From contig JAJZDO010000235.1 of assembly GCA_021805955.1 (NCBI GenBank), positions 1-6,640 on the forward strand: a stretch of 6,640 bases of DNA, read 5' to 3'. A program made the position numbers and the translations under genes. Origin of the DNA: Acidobacteriota bacterium (GTDB lineage: Bacteria; Acidobacteriota; Terriglobia; Terriglobales; Acidobacteriaceae). Under the pieces are notes generated by a model. That model worked only from the letters and a program-made list of their open reading frames with translations, did no database searches and was not told the DNA's origin. Positions 1-6,640 of this stretch are shown piece after piece; position 1 is the first letter of the stretch; each line of letters starts with the position of its first letter.

Positions 1-437
1 TCGGCCTCGGTTCCCATGTCCACGGTATTAGCCAAGTGCAGATCTTCTACATTCTCAAATCTTCGGCTGCCACGAATGCGATCGATAGCTCGATTGCGCG
101 TCACCACCGCAAGCCATCCGCCAAGGCTTCCGCGATGGTCTGCGAATGTCTCCGGCTGCTGCCACAACTTCAAAAACACCTCTTGCATTACGTCTTCCGC
201 CGCTGCACCGTCGCGCAGCACACGCAAGGCGACGGAATACACCATGGTCGAGTACTGATCGTACATACGCGACAGAGCATCGGGCTGTCGTCGCCGCAGT
301 TGGTCTATCAACTGCCGGTCCGTCAGTTGCTGGTCCGTCAGTGTGCCGTCTTGCGGTGGCATCTCAGGCAATGGAATAGCTCGATGGAAAAAATTGACTC
401 GGGCGTCTGCACGCGCGGTCGACATACAACCGTACAC
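1..437 (-). CDS. ECF-type RNA polymerase sigma factor, N-terminal part (cut by left edge)
   Basis: Only region 2 and the start of the linker to region 4 are in the window. Numbered from the ATG at 362, residues 29-101 read as sigma-70 region 2: ALSRMYDQYSTMVYS, then DVMQEVF at 57-63 (the core-binding DVxQExF motif of region 2.2), then GGWLAVVTRNRAIDRIR at 81-97 (the -10-recognising part). ECF factors redirect RNA polymerase to stress or envelope promoters, usually under an anti-sigma factor; none is visible, but the downstream side is off the window. The start is uncertain. GTG at 437 has AAGGA six bases upstream; ATG 425 and ATG 362 are in frame but lack a spaced Shine-Dalgarno. The 25 residues between 437 and 362 do not look sigma-like. 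An in-frame TAA at 447-449 bounds the gene. The family call is firm; the regulon is unknown. Confidence 0.88.
   Translation of the reverse strand, partial: MYGCMSTARADARVNFFHRAIPLPEMPPQDGTLTDQQLTDRQLIDQLRRRQPDALSRMYDQYSTMVYSVALRVLRDGAAAEDVMQEVFLKLWQQPETFADHRGSLGGWLAVVTRNRAIDRIRGSRRFENVEDLHLANTVDMGTEA
312..341. repeat. 15-bp tandem duplication within the sigma factor N-terminus
   Basis: Two adjacent 15-base units (312-326 and 327-341) differ at only two positions. On the minus strand they encode LTDRQ and LTDQQ side by side, in frame, just before region 2. This is a local coding duplication without a predicted function. Confidence 0.75.
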
Positions 438-574
438 GGTTTTTCCTTATCAACGCAAATGGACTGCATTCCCTGACAATATAGGTACGGCAAAAGTTGC
501 TTGTCGGATTGGAATCCACTCCCGCGCATGCTCCACTGCAATGCGCTCGGCCATGAACTGTTGCTGAAATATGA

Positions 575-594
575 AATCGAATTCAATCGAATTC
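575..594. repeat. Perfect 10-bp tandem repeat
   Basis: AATCGAATTC occurs twice in immediate succession (575-584, 585-594). Each copy contains the palindrome GAATTC, so the pair offers two equal sites exactly one helical turn apart. It lies just downstream of the -10-like element of the putative minus-strand promoter at 604-632, where a bound protein could block transcription. That role is inference. Confidence 0.7.
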
Positions 595-603
595 GGCGTG
601 CTT

Positions 604-632
604 TTCAGAGGATTTAGACGTGCCAAGGTTCC
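604..632 (-). promoter_or_regulatory. Putative ECF (RpoE-type) promoter reading toward the sigma factor gene
   Basis: On the minus strand GGAACCT (632-626) is followed after 16 bases by TCTGAA (609-604). Enterobacterial RpoE promoters have a -35 close to GGAACTT and a -10 close to TCTGA at about this spacing. The element points at the sigma factor gene and would give a leader of roughly 160 bases to the GTG at 437. ECF sigma genes are often autoregulated, so the position makes sense. The cognate consensus of this particular sigma factor is unknown, and a chance match is possible. Confidence 0.4.
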
Positions 633-673
633 TTGATCCTGCTAGATTTATCCCTACATTGCAGACTGAGGTC

Positions 674-685
674 GCAGGCGCCTGC
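674..685. promoter_or_regulatory. 12-bp perfect palindrome upstream of the GlsB-type gene, possible operator
   Basis: GCAGGCGCCTGC (674-685) is a perfect inverted repeat centred 34-35 bases before the ATG at 714 and ahead of the GAGGA ribosome-binding site. It has no loop, so it resembles a dimeric protein-binding site more than an RNA hairpin. No regulator can be named. Confidence 0.35.
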
Positions 686-713
686 AAAAGTCCGTTAGAA
701 CGAGGAATCGATA

Positions 714-974
714 ATGTTCATACTCTGGTGGATCATCGTTGGGATTATCGCGGGCTGGATCACGGGCAAGATCGTGAGCGGCGGTGGCTATGGCGTATTC
801 ATGGACATGGTGATCGGTATTATTGGCGCCATCGTCGGCGGCTTTATCATGCGAACCCTGGGATTTGTCGGCCATGGTGGGTTCATCTATACCATCGTTG
901 TGGCTGTTGGAGGAGCAGTACTTCTTACCCTGCTGTTGCGGCTGGTTACGCGGGGAAGGGTGAAACAAATCTAG
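714..974 (+). CDS. GlsB/YeaQ/YmgE-family stress response membrane protein
   Basis: This 86-residue protein is almost entirely hydrophobic, with three predicted membrane helices: about residues 2-20 (FILWWIIVGIIAGWITGKI), 29-50 and 57-79, and a short basic tail RGRVKQI. The Gly-rich first two segments (WIIVGIIAGWITGKIV, then VIGIIGAIVGGFIMR) and the length match the transglycosylase-associated family (GlsB, YeaQ, YmgE) of the inner membrane, linked in several bacteria to general, acid or bile stress. The biochemical activity is not established; the family name reflects genetic association, not a shown transglycosylase. ATG 714 is chosen because GAGGA (702-706) sits seven bases upstream. It is divergent from the ECF sigma factor, so co-regulation is possible. 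A terminator-like hairpin follows at 1013-1055, suggesting a monocistronic gene. Confidence 0.88.
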   Translation: MFILWWIIVGIIAGWITGKIVSGGGYGVFMDMVIGIIGAIVGGFIMRTLGFVGHGGFIYTIVVAVGGAVLLTLLLRLVTRGRVKQI

Positions 975-1012
975 CTGAGTTCGATCGAAGAATTTTCACG
1001 CAATAATCAGGG

Positions 1013-1059
1013 CCTGGGAGTTCCAACGATGTCTGTATGGGCTTCCAGGTCTTTTCTTT
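1013..1059 (+). terminator. Probable rho-independent terminator after the GlsB-type gene
   Basis: CCTGGGAG (1013-1020) pairs with CTTCCAGG (1042-1049), giving eight base pairs including one G-U, and is followed by the T-rich run TCTTTTCTTT. The loop of 21 bases is large, though CCA/TGG inside it could pair and shorten it. The position 39 bases after the stop codon suits termination of the upstream gene. Confidence 0.4.
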
Positions 1060-1106
1060 TGGGCGTAACTCAGCGATGCTTCATGCAACAATAGAGAGAA
1101 TTTTTG

Positions 1107-1150
1107 GTCGGGCGTAAAACCCTTTCGAACCCGACAGGAAGAAATCTGTC
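1107..1150 (+). promoter_or_regulatory. Two mutually exclusive hairpins in the glgX leader
   Basis: GTCGGG (1107-1112) can pair with CCCGAC (1130-1135). The same CCGAC belongs to a second stem, GACAG (1133-1137) with CTGTC (1146-1150), extendable by flanking CC/GG with a bulged C. The two structures cannot coexist in one RNA, the logic of an attenuator or switch. No T-run follows, so classical termination is not supported, and whether glgX transcription starts upstream of this point is unknown. Confidence 0.25.
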
Positions 1151-1160
1151 CGGCCATTTT

Positions 1161-1198
1161 CTGGATGGCGCATCTAACTGTCTGGATCGCACCATCTA
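1161..1198. repeat. Imperfect direct repeat with 21-bp period upstream of glgX
   Basis: CTGGATGGCGCATCTA (1161-1176) and CTGGATCGCACCATCTA (1182-1198) share CTGGAT and CATCTA flanks around a variable centre. The starts are 21 bases apart, two turns of the helix, which would place both copies on one DNA face. The repeat ends 41 bases before the glgX ATG and is a candidate activator or repressor site. No factor can be assigned. Confidence 0.45.
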
Positions 1199-1238
1199 CA
1201 GGCGTTTGCGTTTGCAATGAATCATCTTAAAGAAAGGA

Positions 1239-3434
1239 ATGAGCGACTGGATGACCGAAACACCGACGAACACAATTTGCGAGGGCTTGCCGTATCCCCG
1301 CGGAGCTTCCTGGGATGGCAGTGGAACAAATTTCGCGATATTTTCCGCCCACGCAACCAAGGTGGAAGTTTGTATTTTCGACAACAAAGGTGAACAGGAA
1401 CGCGAACGCATCGAATTGCCCGAATGCACCAACCAGATTTGGCACGGCTACTTGCCGGAGGTTGGTCCGGGCACCGTCTATGGATATCGCGTCTATGGTC
1501 CGTACGAGCCGGAAAACGGGCATCGATTCAATCCGAACAAATTATTGCTCGATCCATACGCGATCGCATACATCGGCGAACTGAAGTGGGATCCTGCAGT
1601 CTTCGGATACAAGATGGAGTCGATGGACGACCTGACATTTGATGAGCGCGATAGCGCGCCCTTCGTGCCCAAGTGTGTTGTCGTCGATCCGAATTTCGAT
1701 TGGAGGGGATCTCCCGGACGGGTACGAAGAGGAAGCCAGAGACAGTTGGCCGTCCCTTTCAATGACACGATCATTTATGAAATGCATGTGCGTGGCTATA
1801 CGAAAAAGCATCCCGCTGTACCGGAAAACCTTCGTGGTACCTATTGCGGGCTTGCGCAGCCGGCGATACTGAACTACATCAAGTCCCTCGGCGTCACGTC
1901 GATTGAATTGCTTCCGATCCATGCCTTTATTAACGATAGTCATTTGCTGGATCGGGGACTGACGAATTACTGGGGATATAACAGCATTGGTTATTTCGCG
2001 CCAGATCCAAGATATGCTTCCGACCGTGCGCAGACGTTGCGCGAATTAAAAGAAATGGTGGCCCAGACTCACCAGGCCGGCCTCGAAGTCATACTCGACG
2101 TGGTCTACAACCATACCGCGGAAGGCAATGAGCGTGGACCGACACTGTCATTCAAGGGCATTGACAATGCCAGCTATTACCGGCTGATGCCGGACAATCC
2201 TCGCTACTACATCAATGACACTGGCGCTGGAAATACCGTCAACCTGAGCCATGCCCGCGTGATTCAGATGGTCACCGATAGTCTGCGCTATTGGGTGGAA
2301 GAGGTGCAGGTGGATGGATTTCGCTTCGACCTGGGTACGATCCTGGCCCGCGAACCCAATGGCTTCGATAACCAAAGCGGATTTCTCAAAGCGTGCAGTC
2401 AGGATCCCGTGTTGAACACGGTGAAACTGATTGTCGAGCCATGGGACTGCGGTCCCGGCGGCTATCAGGTAGGTGAATTTCCACCCGGCTGGGCGGAGTG
2501 GAACGATAAGTTTCGCGACGACGTGCGTGGTTTCTGGAAAGGAGGTCAATCCGCCGCGGCATTGACACAACGTCTCTGCGCGTCCGGCGCCATCTTCAAT
2601 CAACAGGGTCGCAGGCCGTGGGCGAGCATCAATTTCATTACCGCCCATGACGGCTTTACGCTGAACGACCTTGTCTCCTACAACGAAAAACACAATGAAG
2701 CGAACGGAGAAGGAAACCAGGACGGAAATTCCAACACGACTTCCTGGAATTGCGGTGTTGAAGGTCCAACCGACGACCCTGAGATCGACCGGCTTCGACG
2801 CCGCCAAATGCGAAATATGCTGGCCACGCTACTGCTCTCTCAGGGAACTCCCATGATGGTCGCCGGCGATGAATTTGCTCGGACGCAGCAGGGCAACAAC
2901 AATGCCTATTGCCAGGACAACGACATCAGTTGGGTGGACTGGAGCCTGCTGCAGAAAAACAAGGCTCAGGTTGAATTTGTCCGAAAGCTTACCTCTCTGC
3001 GCCACCAATACCCAATCTTTCGCCGCAATTTGTTCCTCATCGGCGAGTACAACCAGGAACTGGGCGTGAAAGATGTGACATGGATCAATGCCAATGGCGC
3101 TGAGATGGAAAGTGCCAATTGGGGCGATGACGCCATGCGCTGCTTTGGGATGCTGATGGACGGCCGCGCCCAGACGACCGGCATTCACCAGCGCGGACAT
3201 GAAGCCACTATGCTGATGGTGATCAACGGTCATTTCGACCTGGTGACGTTCACCCTGCCGAAACATCCCGGCGGCAACGCATGGACGCTTCTCATCGACA
3301 CCAATATCGAGGACACCGCAGAAAAATCGTTCGAGAAGAAAGCGTTCGCGACCGGCGAGTCTTACGGCGTCACGGCCCGCTCTTTGTTGCTCTTCGAATT
3401 GCAGGCAGAGACGGCTGCCGAGTCCGCGCCGTAG
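1239..3434 (+). CDS. glgX: Glycogen debranching enzyme GlgX (GH13 isoamylase type)
   Basis: The enzyme hydrolyses alpha-1,6 branch linkages of glycogen or limit dextrins in the cytoplasm, freeing linear maltooligosaccharides for phosphorylase or trehalose synthesis. Domains in order are an N-terminal CBM48-like sandwich (about 15-105), a GH13 barrel (about 170-590) and a C-terminal beta domain to 731. All four GH13 signatures are present: DVVYNH (287-292), GFRFD with nucleophile Asp364, IVEPWD with acid/base Glu400, and TAHD with stabiliser Asp471. WGYNSIGYFAP (245-255) and NCGVEGPTDDPEI (504-516) are typical of GlgX/TreX. At 731 residues it exceeds E. coli GlgX (657), nearer to TreX. AAAGGA (1233-1238) abuts ATG 1239; ATG 1251 (five residues missing from Met1, starting MTETP) lies 12 bases after it and is a credible true start. 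No glg or tre partner gene is in the window. Confidence 0.96.
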   Translation: MSDWMTETPTNTICEGLPYPRGASWDGSGTNFAIFSAHATKVEVCIFDNKGEQERERIELPECTNQIWHGYLPEVGPGTVYGYRVYGPYEPENGHRFNPNKLLLDPYAIAYIGELKWDPAVFGYKMESMDDLTFDERDSAPFVPKCVVVDPNFDWRGSPGRVRRGSQRQLAVPFNDTIIYEMHVRGYTKKHPAVPENLRGTYCGLAQPAILNYIKSLGVTSIELLPIHAFINDSHLLDRGLTNYWGYNSIGYFAPDPRYASDRAQTLRELKEMVAQTHQAGLEVILDVVYNHTAEGNERGPTLSFKGIDNASYYRLMPDNPRYYINDTGAGNTVNLSHARVIQMVTDSLRYWVEEVQVDGFRFDLGTILAREPNGFDNQSGFLKACSQDPVLNTVKLIVEPWDCGPGGYQVGEFPPGWAEWNDKFRDDVRGFWKGGQSAAALTQRLCASGAIFNQQGRRPWASINFITAHDGFTLNDLVSYNEKHNEANGEGNQDGNSNTTSWNCGVEGPTDDPEIDRLRRRQMRNMLATLLLSQGTPMMVAGDEFARTQQGNNNAYCQDNDISWVDWSLLQKNKAQVEFVRKLTSLRHQYPIFRRNLFLIGEYNQELGVKDVTWINANGAEMESANWGDDAMRCFGMLMDGRAQTTGIHQRGHEATMLMVINGHFDLVTFTLPKHPGGNAWTLLIDTNIEDTAEKSFEKKAFATGESYGVTARSLLLFELQAETAAESAP

Positions 3435-3454
3435 AGCGAATTTTTAGGGAAAAT

Positions 3455-3492
3455 TTATGGGGAAGATCATGTCGCATGACTCTTCCCCATAA
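3455..3492. terminator. Long hairpin between convergent genes, likely terminator
   Basis: The arm at 3455-3471 (TTATGGGGAAGATCATG) pairs with 3475-3492 across a three-base loop TCG. The stem is 17 bp, interrupted only by one unpaired base in the right arm. It begins 20 bases after the glgX stop codon, where glgX converges on the cytochrome operon. Reading on the minus strand, the stem is followed by ATTTTCCC, a short T-run; on the plus strand no T-run follows. Termination is therefore best supported for minus-strand transcripts, and the hairpin may mainly protect the 3' end of the glgX message. Confidence 0.6.
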
Positions 3493-3507
3493 GCTTCCAC
3501 AGTAGAT

Positions 3508-3554
3508 CGGTTGTTGCTTGCAACCGAGGGCCCTGTTGTTGTCGGAAGCCCTCG
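3508..3554 (-). terminator. Further hairpins downstream of the cytochrome c gene
   Basis: CGAGGGC (3525-3531) pairs with GCCCTCG (3548-3554), and CGGTTG (3508-3513) pairs with CAACCG (3521-3526); the two overlap by two bases. They lie 41 bases or more past the cytochrome stop codon on the minus strand. Neither is followed by a T-run, so they could form part of a composite 3' structure with the stronger hairpin at 3455-3492. Confidence 0.3.
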
Positions 3555-3594
3555 TGAACTTTCCCAGCAGTTCGCTGCGTATTGCTGCCCGCAA

Positions 3595-3918
3595 CTACTT
3601 CTTCTGCAGGGTATGAATATAGGCGACGACTTCATTGATCTGCGCACCGGTCAGTTTGCCGGAATACGCAGGCATTTTGCCTTTGCCATTTTTGGTCGTC
3701 GCGACCATCTCCGCCGTCGACATTTTCAGCATCTCCGGCGAACTGAAAGAGGGCGTCTTCATGGCCTTCCCGGCTGGCGTCGCACCGCTGCCATCCGCAG
3801 CGTGACACATTGCACATTTTGCTTTATAGGTGTCCGCTCCTGGACTCTGCGCGAACACTGTCATCGCCGAAATGGCCATGACGCTAACGACTGCGAGTGC
3901 AATTCGATTCTTCATCAT
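3595..3918 (-). CDS. Monoheme class I c-type cytochrome, periplasmic
   Basis: This 107-residue protein carries one covalently bound heme and probably shuttles electrons in the periplasm. Residues 1-23 form a Sec signal peptide (basic start MMKNR, hydrophobic core, predicted cut after VFA before QSPGA). CAMCH at 35-39 is the heme-attachment motif with His39 as proximal ligand; Met82 in GKMPAYSGKL is the likely distal ligand; VVAYIHTL near the end is the typical C-terminal helix. The mature part is small (about 84 residues) and Lys-rich, as in soluble carriers. AAAGGAG (3930-3924) lies five bases before ATG 3918 and eight before the in-frame ATG 3915, so either may start. The gene follows the outer-membrane barrel gene by 47 bases on the same strand, suggesting co-transcription and a role feeding or draining that electron path. 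The partner is inference. Confidence 0.93.
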   Translation of the reverse strand: MMKNRIALAVVSVMAISAMTVFAQSPGADTYKAKCAMCHAADGSGATPAGKAMKTPSFSSPEMLKMSTAEMVATTKNGKGKMPAYSGKLTGAQINEVVAYIHTLQKK

Positions 3919-3965
3919 TCGCTCTCCTTTTCAACTGCCGTGTTGCTGTCATCCGTGAACCCAGG

Positions 3966-6530
3966 TTAAAACTCATAGTGCAGACCCATGGTCACATTAT
4001 TCGCATGGAAATTCCGAGGCGAAGTCTCGCCGGAAGGCGATATCGTGAGACCGGTCTGAAGTCCCGCCAGCGTGGGAGAGTTGCAGGGAACCGGGGTCAC
4101 CGGAGACGTTGGCGTGGGATTGGAAGTGCTGCATAAAGCTGCACCGGAAGGTCCGCCCTCGCCATAGCCGTAGTAGTTGTATTCTGCCCTCACAATCCAT
4201 GCCTTACGAACCGTCCATGCAAGATTCACGTAAGGAGACAGATACGTGGAGACCAGCGAGCCGTTCACATCCCGCGCATCGTTGAAGAATCGGCTACCGT
4301 TTACGGAACTGACGGTATATCCGATGTTGGATTGGATTCGGCTGGTCGGGGATAGATGGAGAGCCACCGATCCGTACTGCGTGGGAGCATCCATAAAGTC
4401 CTTGACAGGCCCGAACTCATAGTAGGTAACTCCCCTCACGGTCGCGCCGGGGCAGGCTGTGCCGCTGGGTGTCGCAGCGCCCGGTAGCGTGGGGCTGGCG
4501 GCGGCGTCGTAGCAGATGTTGGTCGAGGTATACACATCGCTGTAGGAGTAGTTGAAGTCGAACCCATAGTGCGCATTCGGCGACATCACCGCTCCCACAC
4601 TCACGACCCGGCTGTGGTCGACGTGATCCAGCGGCCCCGCTGCAGAGGGCGTGCCTGTGTTGTTCGTGTTGTTATGCCGCTCCACGTCGTTAAAGGCGCC
4701 CGAAATCGTTGCCCAGGACTTTGGCCTGTAGATGGTATGCACTCTGTACCGCTGCGTTTGCCGCGGAGTGACCGCGGTGAATGCATTGTCGTTATAGAAC
4801 AGTCCGATACTGCCGTTGACGTCCCAGTGTTCGGTGGGACGCAGAGCGACGTTGAAGATTCCTCCGTTTTCGTGAATGGTGACGGTTCCGTTGTTGGTCG
4901 CGCCCGGGGCCAGCGGAGCGTTATGAGGAATGCCTTCCGCGATGATGTGGGTTTGATAGCGATAGGTCACAGAAAAGGTCGCGCGGGACCAACCATCCCA
5001 GGTCGCCATCAGGTTGTTGGTCACGAACTTCTGTCCGAAAAAGCCTGGCTGAGGCGTGCCGTTGGGATTGCCCTCAACCTTGACTGGATTTCCAGGAGCC
5101 AGCGGACCCAGGTAGTTCAGGGTCTCGTTCGGGTTTGGAGGCGTAACCAGCGTGGACCCGCTGGAGATGTTTGCGACACCGGGTTGCTGCACATTGGAAA
5201 AGACAACCTGATCGGCAACACTGATCGTTTTCGTCGCGTTCCAATTGATGCCGTAGTCGATAGCGAGGACCTTCCGCTTGGCATTTGCATTGCCCGTATA
5301 AGTGATGGAACGAACCGCCCCGGACAGTCCCTGGAAGTTCTCATAGTAATTGGGAAGGTTCATGTTCGCGTTGGTGTAGCGCACATCGCCGTTCATCGCA
5401 ATGTTCGGGATGCTAGAGCTTTGGAACCGGAAAATCTCCGTGGGGTACAGGATGCGCGTCGGCTGGCTGCGCAGATAGCTGATAGCAACACTGCAAGCCG
5501 GATTGATAATGGGTAGCCCGCCCGTGGTTTGCGCGGGCGACAGGATCGTGTAGGGTGCGGTGCCCATGCTTCCCGTATTGCAGCTGCCGAGGCTGTAAGG
5601 CGGAATGCTGTCCCATCCGCCCGGAGCCACCTTTGTTCCATCTGCCTCCTGAACGATGAAATCGCTCGGGGCCAGAGTGAAGTAGGAGCCGTTCTTATAA
5701 TGATCGATCTCTTCTTCAAATGTCAGCGTGGTTTTCAACACGGGTTTCCAGTCGATCCCTCCGATGAAATCGTCGGTACTGTTGCGTTGATACTGCTCGA
5801 GCAGTTGAGTATTCGTGCCGATCGAGGCTGCGAAGTAGGGGCTCGACGCGCCGGGACTCAGGCTCGGACCTTGGAAAACATTTTGCGAGTATGCGAAACG
5901 GTACGTGACCTTGGAGATTGGAAAGATCGTGAGGTACGTGTCCGTCATTCTGCGCACCGTGTTGTATAGGAACGGCGATTGCTTTACCTGCGGCCATGCG
6001 AGCGAACCCGTGGGCGCATTGGTTGGGCCGATCGGGATCGATTGCCCCGAAGGGATATTCGGGTTGCCCAGCAGGTTGTAATCGAAGTACTGCCGGTCGC
6101 GACGGAACCTTCCCGAGAACTGATAGATTTTGCCTTTGGAGAAGTCCATCGTGGCCAGGTCGTATGGGTTCCCGCCCCACCCGGTGCTGAAAGCTGTCAG
6201 CGAATCGACAAGAGTATGCTTTGTGGTCGGCAGCGCCTGCATATGAAAAGAACTGCCCAGCACGCGCGGCCCGGACTGGATGTTGACCAGCGTGTCATAC
6301 ATGGCCCCACTGCCGGTAAGGCTGGTCATGTTCCCACCCAGATTGATGGCCCCGTGGAGTGTGTATCCATTCGGGGCGACTGACGGTGTATCCGGCATCG
6401 CAACCTGGGCGCCGGCGACGCCAGTGGCGATCAGCAAGATTGCGACTCCAATGCTCTCGGCAATACGCGGAGCCATTGCGGGTGAGAGCTTTTGATGGTG
6501 CCGCTTGAAAAGCCCTTCTGTTTTTTTCAT
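3966..6530 (-). CDS. Outer-membrane beta-barrel protein, probable MtrB/PioB-like sheath of a cytochrome conduit
   Basis: An exported protein of 854 residues if started at ATG 6530 (858 from GTG 6542). ATG 6530 is preferred because GAGGA (6540-6536) lies five bases before it and overlaps the GTG. Numbered from the GTG, residues 1-30 are basic and 31-45 hydrophobic, ending GVAGA before QVAMP, a long signal peptide. The remainder shows short amphipathic stretches with alternating aromatics, Gly/Pro/Asn/Ser-rich loops and a terminal HYEF, the final aromatic recognised by the barrel assembly machinery. There is no TonB plug or carboxypeptidase-like domain. The YDTLVNIQSG region near 82-91 and RRDRQYFDYNLLGNP at 147-161 suggest a repeated-strand porin. 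Assignment to MtrB/PioB rests mainly on the heme-protein genes on both sides; the N-terminal CxxC of Shewanella MtrB is absent. Six cysteines fall into three loop pairs (321/350, 677/697, 804/820). Other large porins remain possible. Confidence 0.7.
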   Translation of the reverse strand: MKKTEGLFKRHHQKLSPAMAPRIAESIGVAILLIATGVAGAQVAMPDTPSVAPNGYTLHGAINLGGNMTSLTGSGAMYDTLVNIQSGPRVLGSSFHMQALPTTKHTLVDSLTAFSTGWGGNPYDLATMDFSKGKIYQFSGRFRRDRQYFDYNLLGNPNIPSGQSIPIGPTNAPTGSLAWPQVKQSPFLYNTVRRMTDTYLTIFPISKVTYRFAYSQNVFQGPSLSPGASSPYFAASIGTNTQLLEQYQRNSTDDFIGGIDWKPVLKTTLTFEEEIDHYKNGSYFTLAPSDFIVQEADGTKVAPGGWDSIPPYSLGSCNTGSMGTAPYTILSPAQTTGGLPIINPACSVAISYLRSQPTRILYPTEIFRFQSSSIPNIAMNGDVRYTNANMNLPNYYENFQGLSGAVRSITYTGNANAKRKVLAIDYGINWNATKTISVADQVVFSNVQQPGVANISSGSTLVTPPNPNETLNYLGPLAPGNPVKVEGNPNGTPQPGFFGQKFVTNNLMATWDGWSRATFSVTYRYQTHIIAEGIPHNAPLAPGATNNGTVTIHENGGIFNVALRPTEHWDVNGSIGLFYNDNAFTAVTPRQTQRYRVHTIYRPKSWATISGAFNDVERHNNTNNTGTPSAAGPLDHVDHSRVVSVGAVMSPNAHYGFDFNYSYSDVYTSTNICYDAAASPTLPGAATPSGTACPGATVRGVTYYEFGPVKDFMDAPTQYGSVALHLSPTSRIQSNIGYTVSSVNGSRFFNDARDVNGSLVSTYLSPYVNLAWTVRKAWIVRAEYNYYGYGEGGPSGAALCSTSNPTPTSPVTPVPCNSPTLAGLQTGLTISPSGETSPRNFHANNVTMGLHYEF

Positions 6531-6585
6531 TTCGATCCTCACTTTTAAAAAGCGTCAATAAAGCGGAACCACGGGGTCGGCCCCA
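6531..6585 (-). promoter_or_regulatory. 55-base intra-operon spacer with GC hairpin and ribosome-binding site
   Basis: On the minus strand the spacer begins just after the upstream TAA. It contains GGGG-TCGG-CCCC (plus 6573-6584), a four-pair all-GC stem with a tetraloop, then an A/T-rich stretch and the GAGGA ribosome-binding site (6540-6536) of the barrel gene. No T-run follows the hairpin, so it is not a terminator. TTGACG near 6560 is too close to the start codon to act as a -35 for this gene. Confidence 0.4.
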
Positions 6586-6640
6586 TTACCGAATGAAAGC
6601 CGCATTGATGTTGGATCCGTGGATCATGGTGTGACAGCCC
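6586..6640 (-). CDS. C-terminal end of a probable multiheme c-type cytochrome (MtrA/PioA/DmsE-like), cut by right edge
   Basis: The last 17 codons before TAA (6588-6586) read GCHTMIHGSNINAAFIR. The CH at the edge is placed as the end of a CxxCH heme motif whose first cysteine lies beyond the window. CH followed by T-x-IHGSN is characteristic of decaheme-type MtrA/PioA/DmsE cytochromes, in which the second His serves as distal ligand of another heme. The gene ends 55 bases before the barrel gene on the same strand, the order (mtrA then mtrB, pioA then pioB) seen in known outer-membrane electron conduits. With only 17 residues the call is suggestive; the number of hemes cannot be seen. Confidence 0.6.
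   Translation of the reverse strand, partial: GCHTMIHGSNINAAFIR

Follow-up and report, generated by a model that had tools for sequence, protein, structure and literature searches.

The DNA stretch analysed here (the window: 6,640 nucleotides, contig JAJZDO010000235.1, from an Acidobacteriaceae member) carries, all on the minus strand and in this order, the end of a decaheme cytochrome gene, a gene for a large outer-membrane beta-barrel and a gene for a small monoheme cytochrome c, separated by 55 and 47 bases (Table 1). We consider it very probable that the products of the three genes form a porin-cytochrome conduit through which electrons cross the outer membrane. The first-pass annotation of the window had already recognised three co-directional genes with this order and these gaps, and our analysis agrees. 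Positions 6639 down to 6586 read GCHTMIHGSNINAAFIR followed by a stop; the heme content of this upstream gene is not visible in the window, so its multiheme nature was tested in relatives instead. Two places in the window fit the full CxxCH pattern, one in the monoheme gene and the other at 356-370, the chance expectation being 0.57 matches. An alternative barrel start exists at GTG 6542 (858 residues), and hydrophobic stretches are visible at the N-termini of both the barrel and the monoheme protein.

The corresponding genome bin (G000) contains a contig, C390, that matches window bases 1-3710 only, with one mismatch, and ends within the monoheme gene. A search of this bin found neither the barrel nor the decaheme gene, so that the evidence for both comes from the window sequence and from related loci; the window and the bin seem to derive from different assemblies.

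Table 1. Features of the window, with coordinates counted from its first base
Feature	Position	Strand	Remarks
Decaheme c-type cytochrome gene, 3' end	6586..6640	-	final 17 residues and stop visible; remainder beyond the window
Outer-membrane beta-barrel, probable conduit sheath	3966..6530	-	ATG at 6530, GAGG just upstream; 854 residues; stop at 3966
Monoheme cytochrome c, probable periplasmic shuttle	3595..3918	-	107 residues, one CAMCH, GGAG upstream
Strong hairpin, possibly a two-way terminator	3446..3502	.	between the convergent conduit genes and glgX
Glycogen debranching enzyme GlgX	1239..3434	+	TIGR02100, 1038 bits (cut-off 640.9); convergent with the conduit genes

A decaheme cytochrome adjoins the barrel

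Scanning genome contigs with the barrel yielded 43 close loci, all labelled as Acidobacterial and several of them in metagenome bins; 20 distant loci, whose barrels are as little as 23% identical where they align, were hand-picked from matches among 61 genomes (27 of the 61 had a match). Room upstream, defined as at least 900 bases, is available in 41 of the 43 close loci (two lack room upstream and two lack it downstream). Wherever there is room, a same-strand protein with exactly ten CxxCH motifs adjoins the barrel upstream, in 41/41 close and 20/20 distant loci (61/61), and in a few loci the automatically extended barrel start even overlaps it. This arrangement is not due to chance. The nearest relative (locus L002, barrel 92% identical to that of the window) encodes directly upstream a 308-residue protein with ten CxxCH motifs, and the last 17 residues of the window fragment are identical to its C-terminus; more generally, a C-terminal CH..IHGSN is found in 40 of the 41 close decahemes. 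The first-pass annotation had proposed a multiheme upstream gene with a barrel partner: while the window itself shows 17 residues only, the closest full copy has ten heme motifs rather than none or one, and the partnership recurs in every relative where it could be seen.

Judged by its sequence, this closest full copy is of the DmsE/MtrA type. The L002 decaheme scores 256.8 bits with TIGR03508 (DmsE family, cut-off 192.2), an assignment that applies to the L002 copy, the window gene being truncated, and its residues 29-302 match 6r2q_A with an E-value of 3.2e-36. This chain is labelled 'Cystathionine beta-synthase' in the library, but the title of PDB entry 6R2Q is Structure of the Mtr complex, and we take its chain A to be MtrA and its chain B to be MtrB. 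The Geobacter GSU2203/GSU2204 pair (NF041028, NF041027) is also comparable: the L002 decaheme reaches 219.9 bits on NF041028, and 4 of 10 distant barrels match the GSU2204 family NF041027 with E-values of 6.4e-5 to 1.4e-3 (a fifth at 0.28), but all these matches lie below the curated cut-offs (325 and 350) and the window barrel has no match. The distant barrels L057, L058, L061, L064 and L070 show such a weak, sub-cut-off likeness to the Geobacter GSU2204 (seleno)protein family.

The pair is carried by the named strains Silvibacterium bohemicum S15, Bryocella elongata DSM 22489, Granulicella paludicola DSM 22464 and Terracidiphilus gabretensis S55. Two further observations concern the decahemes: S. 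bohemicum S15 has two decaheme-barrel-monoheme sets (L006 and L009) on one contig, and at G008:C70:73614-74531 decaheme-like stretches lie within a single open frame of 1109 residues, perhaps a fused cytochrome.

A barrel family outside the MtrB models

The window barrel matches no Pfam or NCBIfam model, including PF11854 and TIGR03509, and PF11854 matches none of 35 family members (0/35), so that it is not filed as a member of the MtrB/PioB family. The family is large (of 7995 candidates scored, 2008 are related at E up to 0.001), and not one of the 120 relatives listed has a Pfam domain or is named as a conduit. A search of PDB sequences with the barrel profile gave nothing at E up to 10, and the distant barrels bridge to PF11854 at sub-threshold level only (13.9 bits for L061; TIGR03509 in L066 at E 0.096).

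For profile comparison, two alignments were built: A1 combines the window barrel with 34 of the 43 close loci (omitting L043, L004, L021, L027, L031, L032, L035, L040 and L041; L043 was left out because of three stops in its match range, and L027, L032 and L041 cover the barrel query in part only), and A2 combines it with 28/120 and 44/120 proteins from two listings and 11 of the 43 loci. The less diverse A1, used in the first comparison, gave E 0.0058 and a probability of 6% against MtrB, and E 0.4 in global mode. A2 against 20 Acidobacteriota PF11854 barrels gave a probability of 94% and E 1.5e-7 over 526 columns. Reversing one side brought this to E 0.017 and 0.034, and reversing both sides, which keeps the relation, gave 3.4e-5. 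In a further control, A2 against 25 TonB-dependent receptors of related genomes scored E 2.2e-4 over 202 columns, and the same receptors scored 7.5e-5 against the MtrB set, meaning that barrels in general score a little and that the MtrB match lies about three orders above. Remote common descent of the barrel with MtrB is thus likely at the level of sequence profiles.

The predicted structure points the same way. An AlphaFold model of the barrel (predicted local distance difference test score, pLDDT, 80.6; predicted template modelling score, pTM, 0.71) has 6r2q_B as its best solved match. A first model of lower confidence (pLDDT 65.9) ranked MtrB third in Foldseek, behind FyuA and PhuR, and first (tied) in VIA-align. 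The barrel is thus predicted to be MtrB-like in size and fold, a resemblance that comes from the predicted fold and the profile comparison and not from family models. The sheath barrel of MtrB type that the first-pass annotation described as exported is in this sense upheld by fold and profiles, but the match to the MtrB_PioB hidden Markov model that it suggested looking for is absent, in the window as in all 35 members. All of 35 close members keep the six barrel cysteines 321, 350, 677, 697, 804 and 820, and 84 diverse members likewise share the first four; they perhaps form loop disulfides.

Of 297 Acidobacteriota genomes sampled, 68 have PF11854 itself above cut-off, and three of these belong to the family of the window, G000 not being among them; the window barrel is a second lineage alongside this recognised one. 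The partners follow the same division. PF11854-type barrels likewise have a partner with nine or ten hemes in 19 of 20 fetched loci, but in a tree of 54 decahemes these 19 partners and 35 partners of window-type barrels split at one 100/100 branch (15/41 close, 20/20 distant and 19/20 PF11854 loci; bootstrap not settled; L108 omitted as it has no 9-10-heme frame). This two-sided tree is what one would expect if barrel and cytochrome stayed together as a pair, and less so if barrels were swapped between cytochromes.

Monoheme cytochrome, inner-membrane module and neighbouring genes

The monoheme protein scores above cut-off with PF13442 (56.7 bits) and PF00034 (42.2 bits), and its assumed mature form has a calculated isoelectric point of 9.5. 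Its best solved matches are the CcoP oxidase subunit, cytochrome c-552 and many cytochromes c6, and its KMPAY stretch resembles what we take to be the Met ligand loop of c6-type cytochromes. A homologue lies within 700 bases after the barrel in 35/41 close and 13/20 distant loci with room and is missing in 6/41 and 7/20: the decaheme looks obligatory in these loci, and the monoheme protein frequent yet optional. The first-pass annotation saw a soluble carrier after the barrel as a less familiar addition, but such a partner is by itself not new. In Sideroxydans lithotrophicus ES-1, a decaheme, a barrel and the small monoheme protein MtoD, described as a shuttle in an uptake pathway, lie in one cluster (PMC4412085), and a monoheme protein is mentioned beside Group 6 mtrCAB (PMC8805035). 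The window proteins nevertheless differ from MtoAB/MtoD in the barrel family and probably in heme ligation, MtoD being bis-histidine (PMC4412085) in contrast to the KMPAY stretch, and the 53 sequences that the window monoheme matches at E up to 0.01 do not include MtoD (4XXL).

A second module probably serves the inner membrane. A protein with five hemes and 475-553 residues begins no more than 5 kilobases after the barrel in at least 19 of the 43 close loci (at most five downstream cytochromes were listed per locus). The two 5-heme proteins scanned here, of L006 and L010, have a NapC/NirT domain, the L010 copy lying about 5.4 kilobases downstream and thus outside the 19 loci, and PF03264 is above cut-off in the 5-heme proteins of L006, L010, L097 and L099. 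A 13-heme protein follows in L010, L011, L016, L021 and L041; the one scanned (L010) has a cytochrome b561 domain (PF01292) above cut-off. Within the bin, contig C251 (locus L097) carries in one direction a monoheme cytochrome 61% identical to that of the window, an 11-heme protein, a b561-like protein and a 5-heme NapC-like protein; PF01292 stays below cut-off here (24.7 bits against 30.1) and in L099. These domains were looked at with the inner-membrane cytochromes ImcH and CbcL in mind, of which a NapC-like multiheme protein and a multiheme protein with a b-type membrane part would be expected. Six of the 10 genus genomes have a relative of the L006 5-heme protein, and contig C47 of genome G008 carries both module and conduit, about 30 kilobases apart.

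Adjacency of a decaheme and a large barrel, together with the matches to 6r2q_A and 6r2q_B, likens the locus to Shewanella MtrAB(C), from which it differs in its barrel models, in the monoheme cytochrome after the barrel and in the apparent lack of a surface partner. When we looked for the surface multiheme cytochrome that the first-pass annotation proposed to seek nearby, none of the 10 genomes of the genus had an OmcA/MtrC-family protein that reached the cut-off, the one weak match (21.5 bits) being in G001. In L059 (6552-9035 and downstream), an 11-heme (666 residues) and a 19-heme protein (693 residues) follow a distant barrel and are possible surface cytochromes.

The hairpin of Table 1 folds as RNA with -27 kcal/mol (z -6.13 against 200 shuffles). 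Since glgX is convergent and this hairpin intervenes, glycogen metabolism was rejected as a component of the conduit, and nothing links glgX to it, even though the first-pass annotation had mentioned glycogen-debranching genes alongside the conduit. In L002 and L005 a glgX-sized convergent open reading frame, unannotated, also follows; other loci differ. Further left, the window encodes a small membrane protein of the transglycosylase-associated family (714-974, plus strand, PF04226) and the start of an extracytoplasmic-function (ECF)-type sigma factor (3-437, minus strand, PF04542), truncated by the window edge.

Electron flow and its possible direction

We propose that quinol would be oxidised by the inner-membrane module, whose 11-heme, b561-like and 5-heme NapC/NrfH-like proteins, encoded in the same bin beside the related monoheme, probably give electrons to the quinone pool or take them from it. 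The small monoheme cytochrome would ferry electrons through the periplasm between the inner membrane and the conduit, where the DmsE/MtrA-type decaheme, lodged inside the large barrel and insulated by it as MtrA is by MtrB, would pass them on to the surface.

Other functions must be considered. The barrel could be a transporter, similar to TonB receptors or porins, and the cytochromes neighbours with another task: some homologues bear the names 'Oar protein' or 'TonB-dependent receptor-like', the search with the first structure model placed TonB receptors ahead of MtrB, and the TonB control gave a score of its own, but given how far the MtrB match exceeds that score, we regard this as very improbable. 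Alternatively, the conduit might feed a dedicated extracellular reductase rather than metals. In Shewanella, DmsEF feeds DmsAB for the reduction of dimethyl sulfoxide, and the decaheme does fall in a family named after DmsE. We nevertheless find this improbable, because the TIGR03508 name covers MtrA-type proteins too, and because neither the surroundings of the window nor the tables of open reading frames drew attention to such a reductase, although no search aimed at DmsA-type genes was made.

The direction of flow is a more delicate question. Granted a conduit, net outward flow with reduction of Fe(III) or humic material is moderately probable, since the inner-membrane module consists of NapC- and b561-type parts and Fe(III) reduction is known from several acidophilic Acidobacteriaceae (PMC8790237). 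Acidobacterium capsulatum and Acidicapsa are reported Fe(III) reducers. Neither argument is decisive: parts of the NapC/NirT and b561-like kinds figure in discussions of quinone reduction as well as of quinol oxidation, and for the CbcL/MtrH/MtoC group no feature is reported that distinguishes quinol-oxidising from quinone-reducing forms (PMC6295460). Electrons could instead run inward, from extracellular Fe(II) or another donor to the decaheme, the monoheme and a terminal oxidase, the route suggested for MtoAB and PioAB. This would suit a monoheme protein that best matches CcoP, cytochrome c-552 and cytochromes c6, the precedent of MtoD as a monoheme shuttle of an uptake pathway (PMC4412085), and the absence of an MtrC-type surface cytochrome over cut-off in the 10 genus genomes. 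With the quinone module and the Fe(III) reducers on the other side of the scale, we hold inward flow to be rather unlikely.

Conduits are not unprecedented in this phylum: a study of Holophaga describes its own finding as the first likely porin-cytochrome complex in Acidobacteria (PMC7399161), MtrCAB is reported in five Acidobacteriia (PMC8805035), where, unlike in the window, a tetraheme protein follows mtrB, iron reduction was proposed from decaheme sequences of Solibacter and Terriglobus (PMC3669403), homologues of PioA, PioB and PioC are mentioned in Acidobacteria (PMC10654088), and the Acidobacteriota genomes of one study encode large proteins with eight or more CXXCH motifs, mostly of unknown substrate (PMC8100337). 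In the open-licence literature we found no paper presenting the window-type barrel family as a conduit, although an earlier report may exist elsewhere. The best reading of the locus is therefore a conduit of known type with a barrel missed by present models, widespread in Acidobacteriaceae. A bolder view, which we put forward tentatively as possible rather than probable, is that the barrel founds a separate conduit class typical of Acidobacteriaceae and their kin, co-diverged with its own decaheme lineage and missed by MtrB-based surveys, in which a c6-like monoheme is shared by outer- and inner-membrane modules and which would be the missing Fe(III)-reduction machinery of acidophilic Acidobacteriaceae.

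Conduit searches usually rely on models of known barrels such as MtrB; given that the listed relatives have neither Pfam domain nor conduit name, yet a decaheme stands beside the barrel in each examined locus with room, such systems would be undercounted. Acidobacteriaceae, which are common in soil and mines, may thus exchange electrons with iron or other extracellular material. As named strains carry the pair, the mechanism is testable by gene deletion, and the interest of the finding lies both in the breadth of an overlooked barrel family and in the opening it gives for testing how acidophilic Acidobacteriaceae reduce iron.

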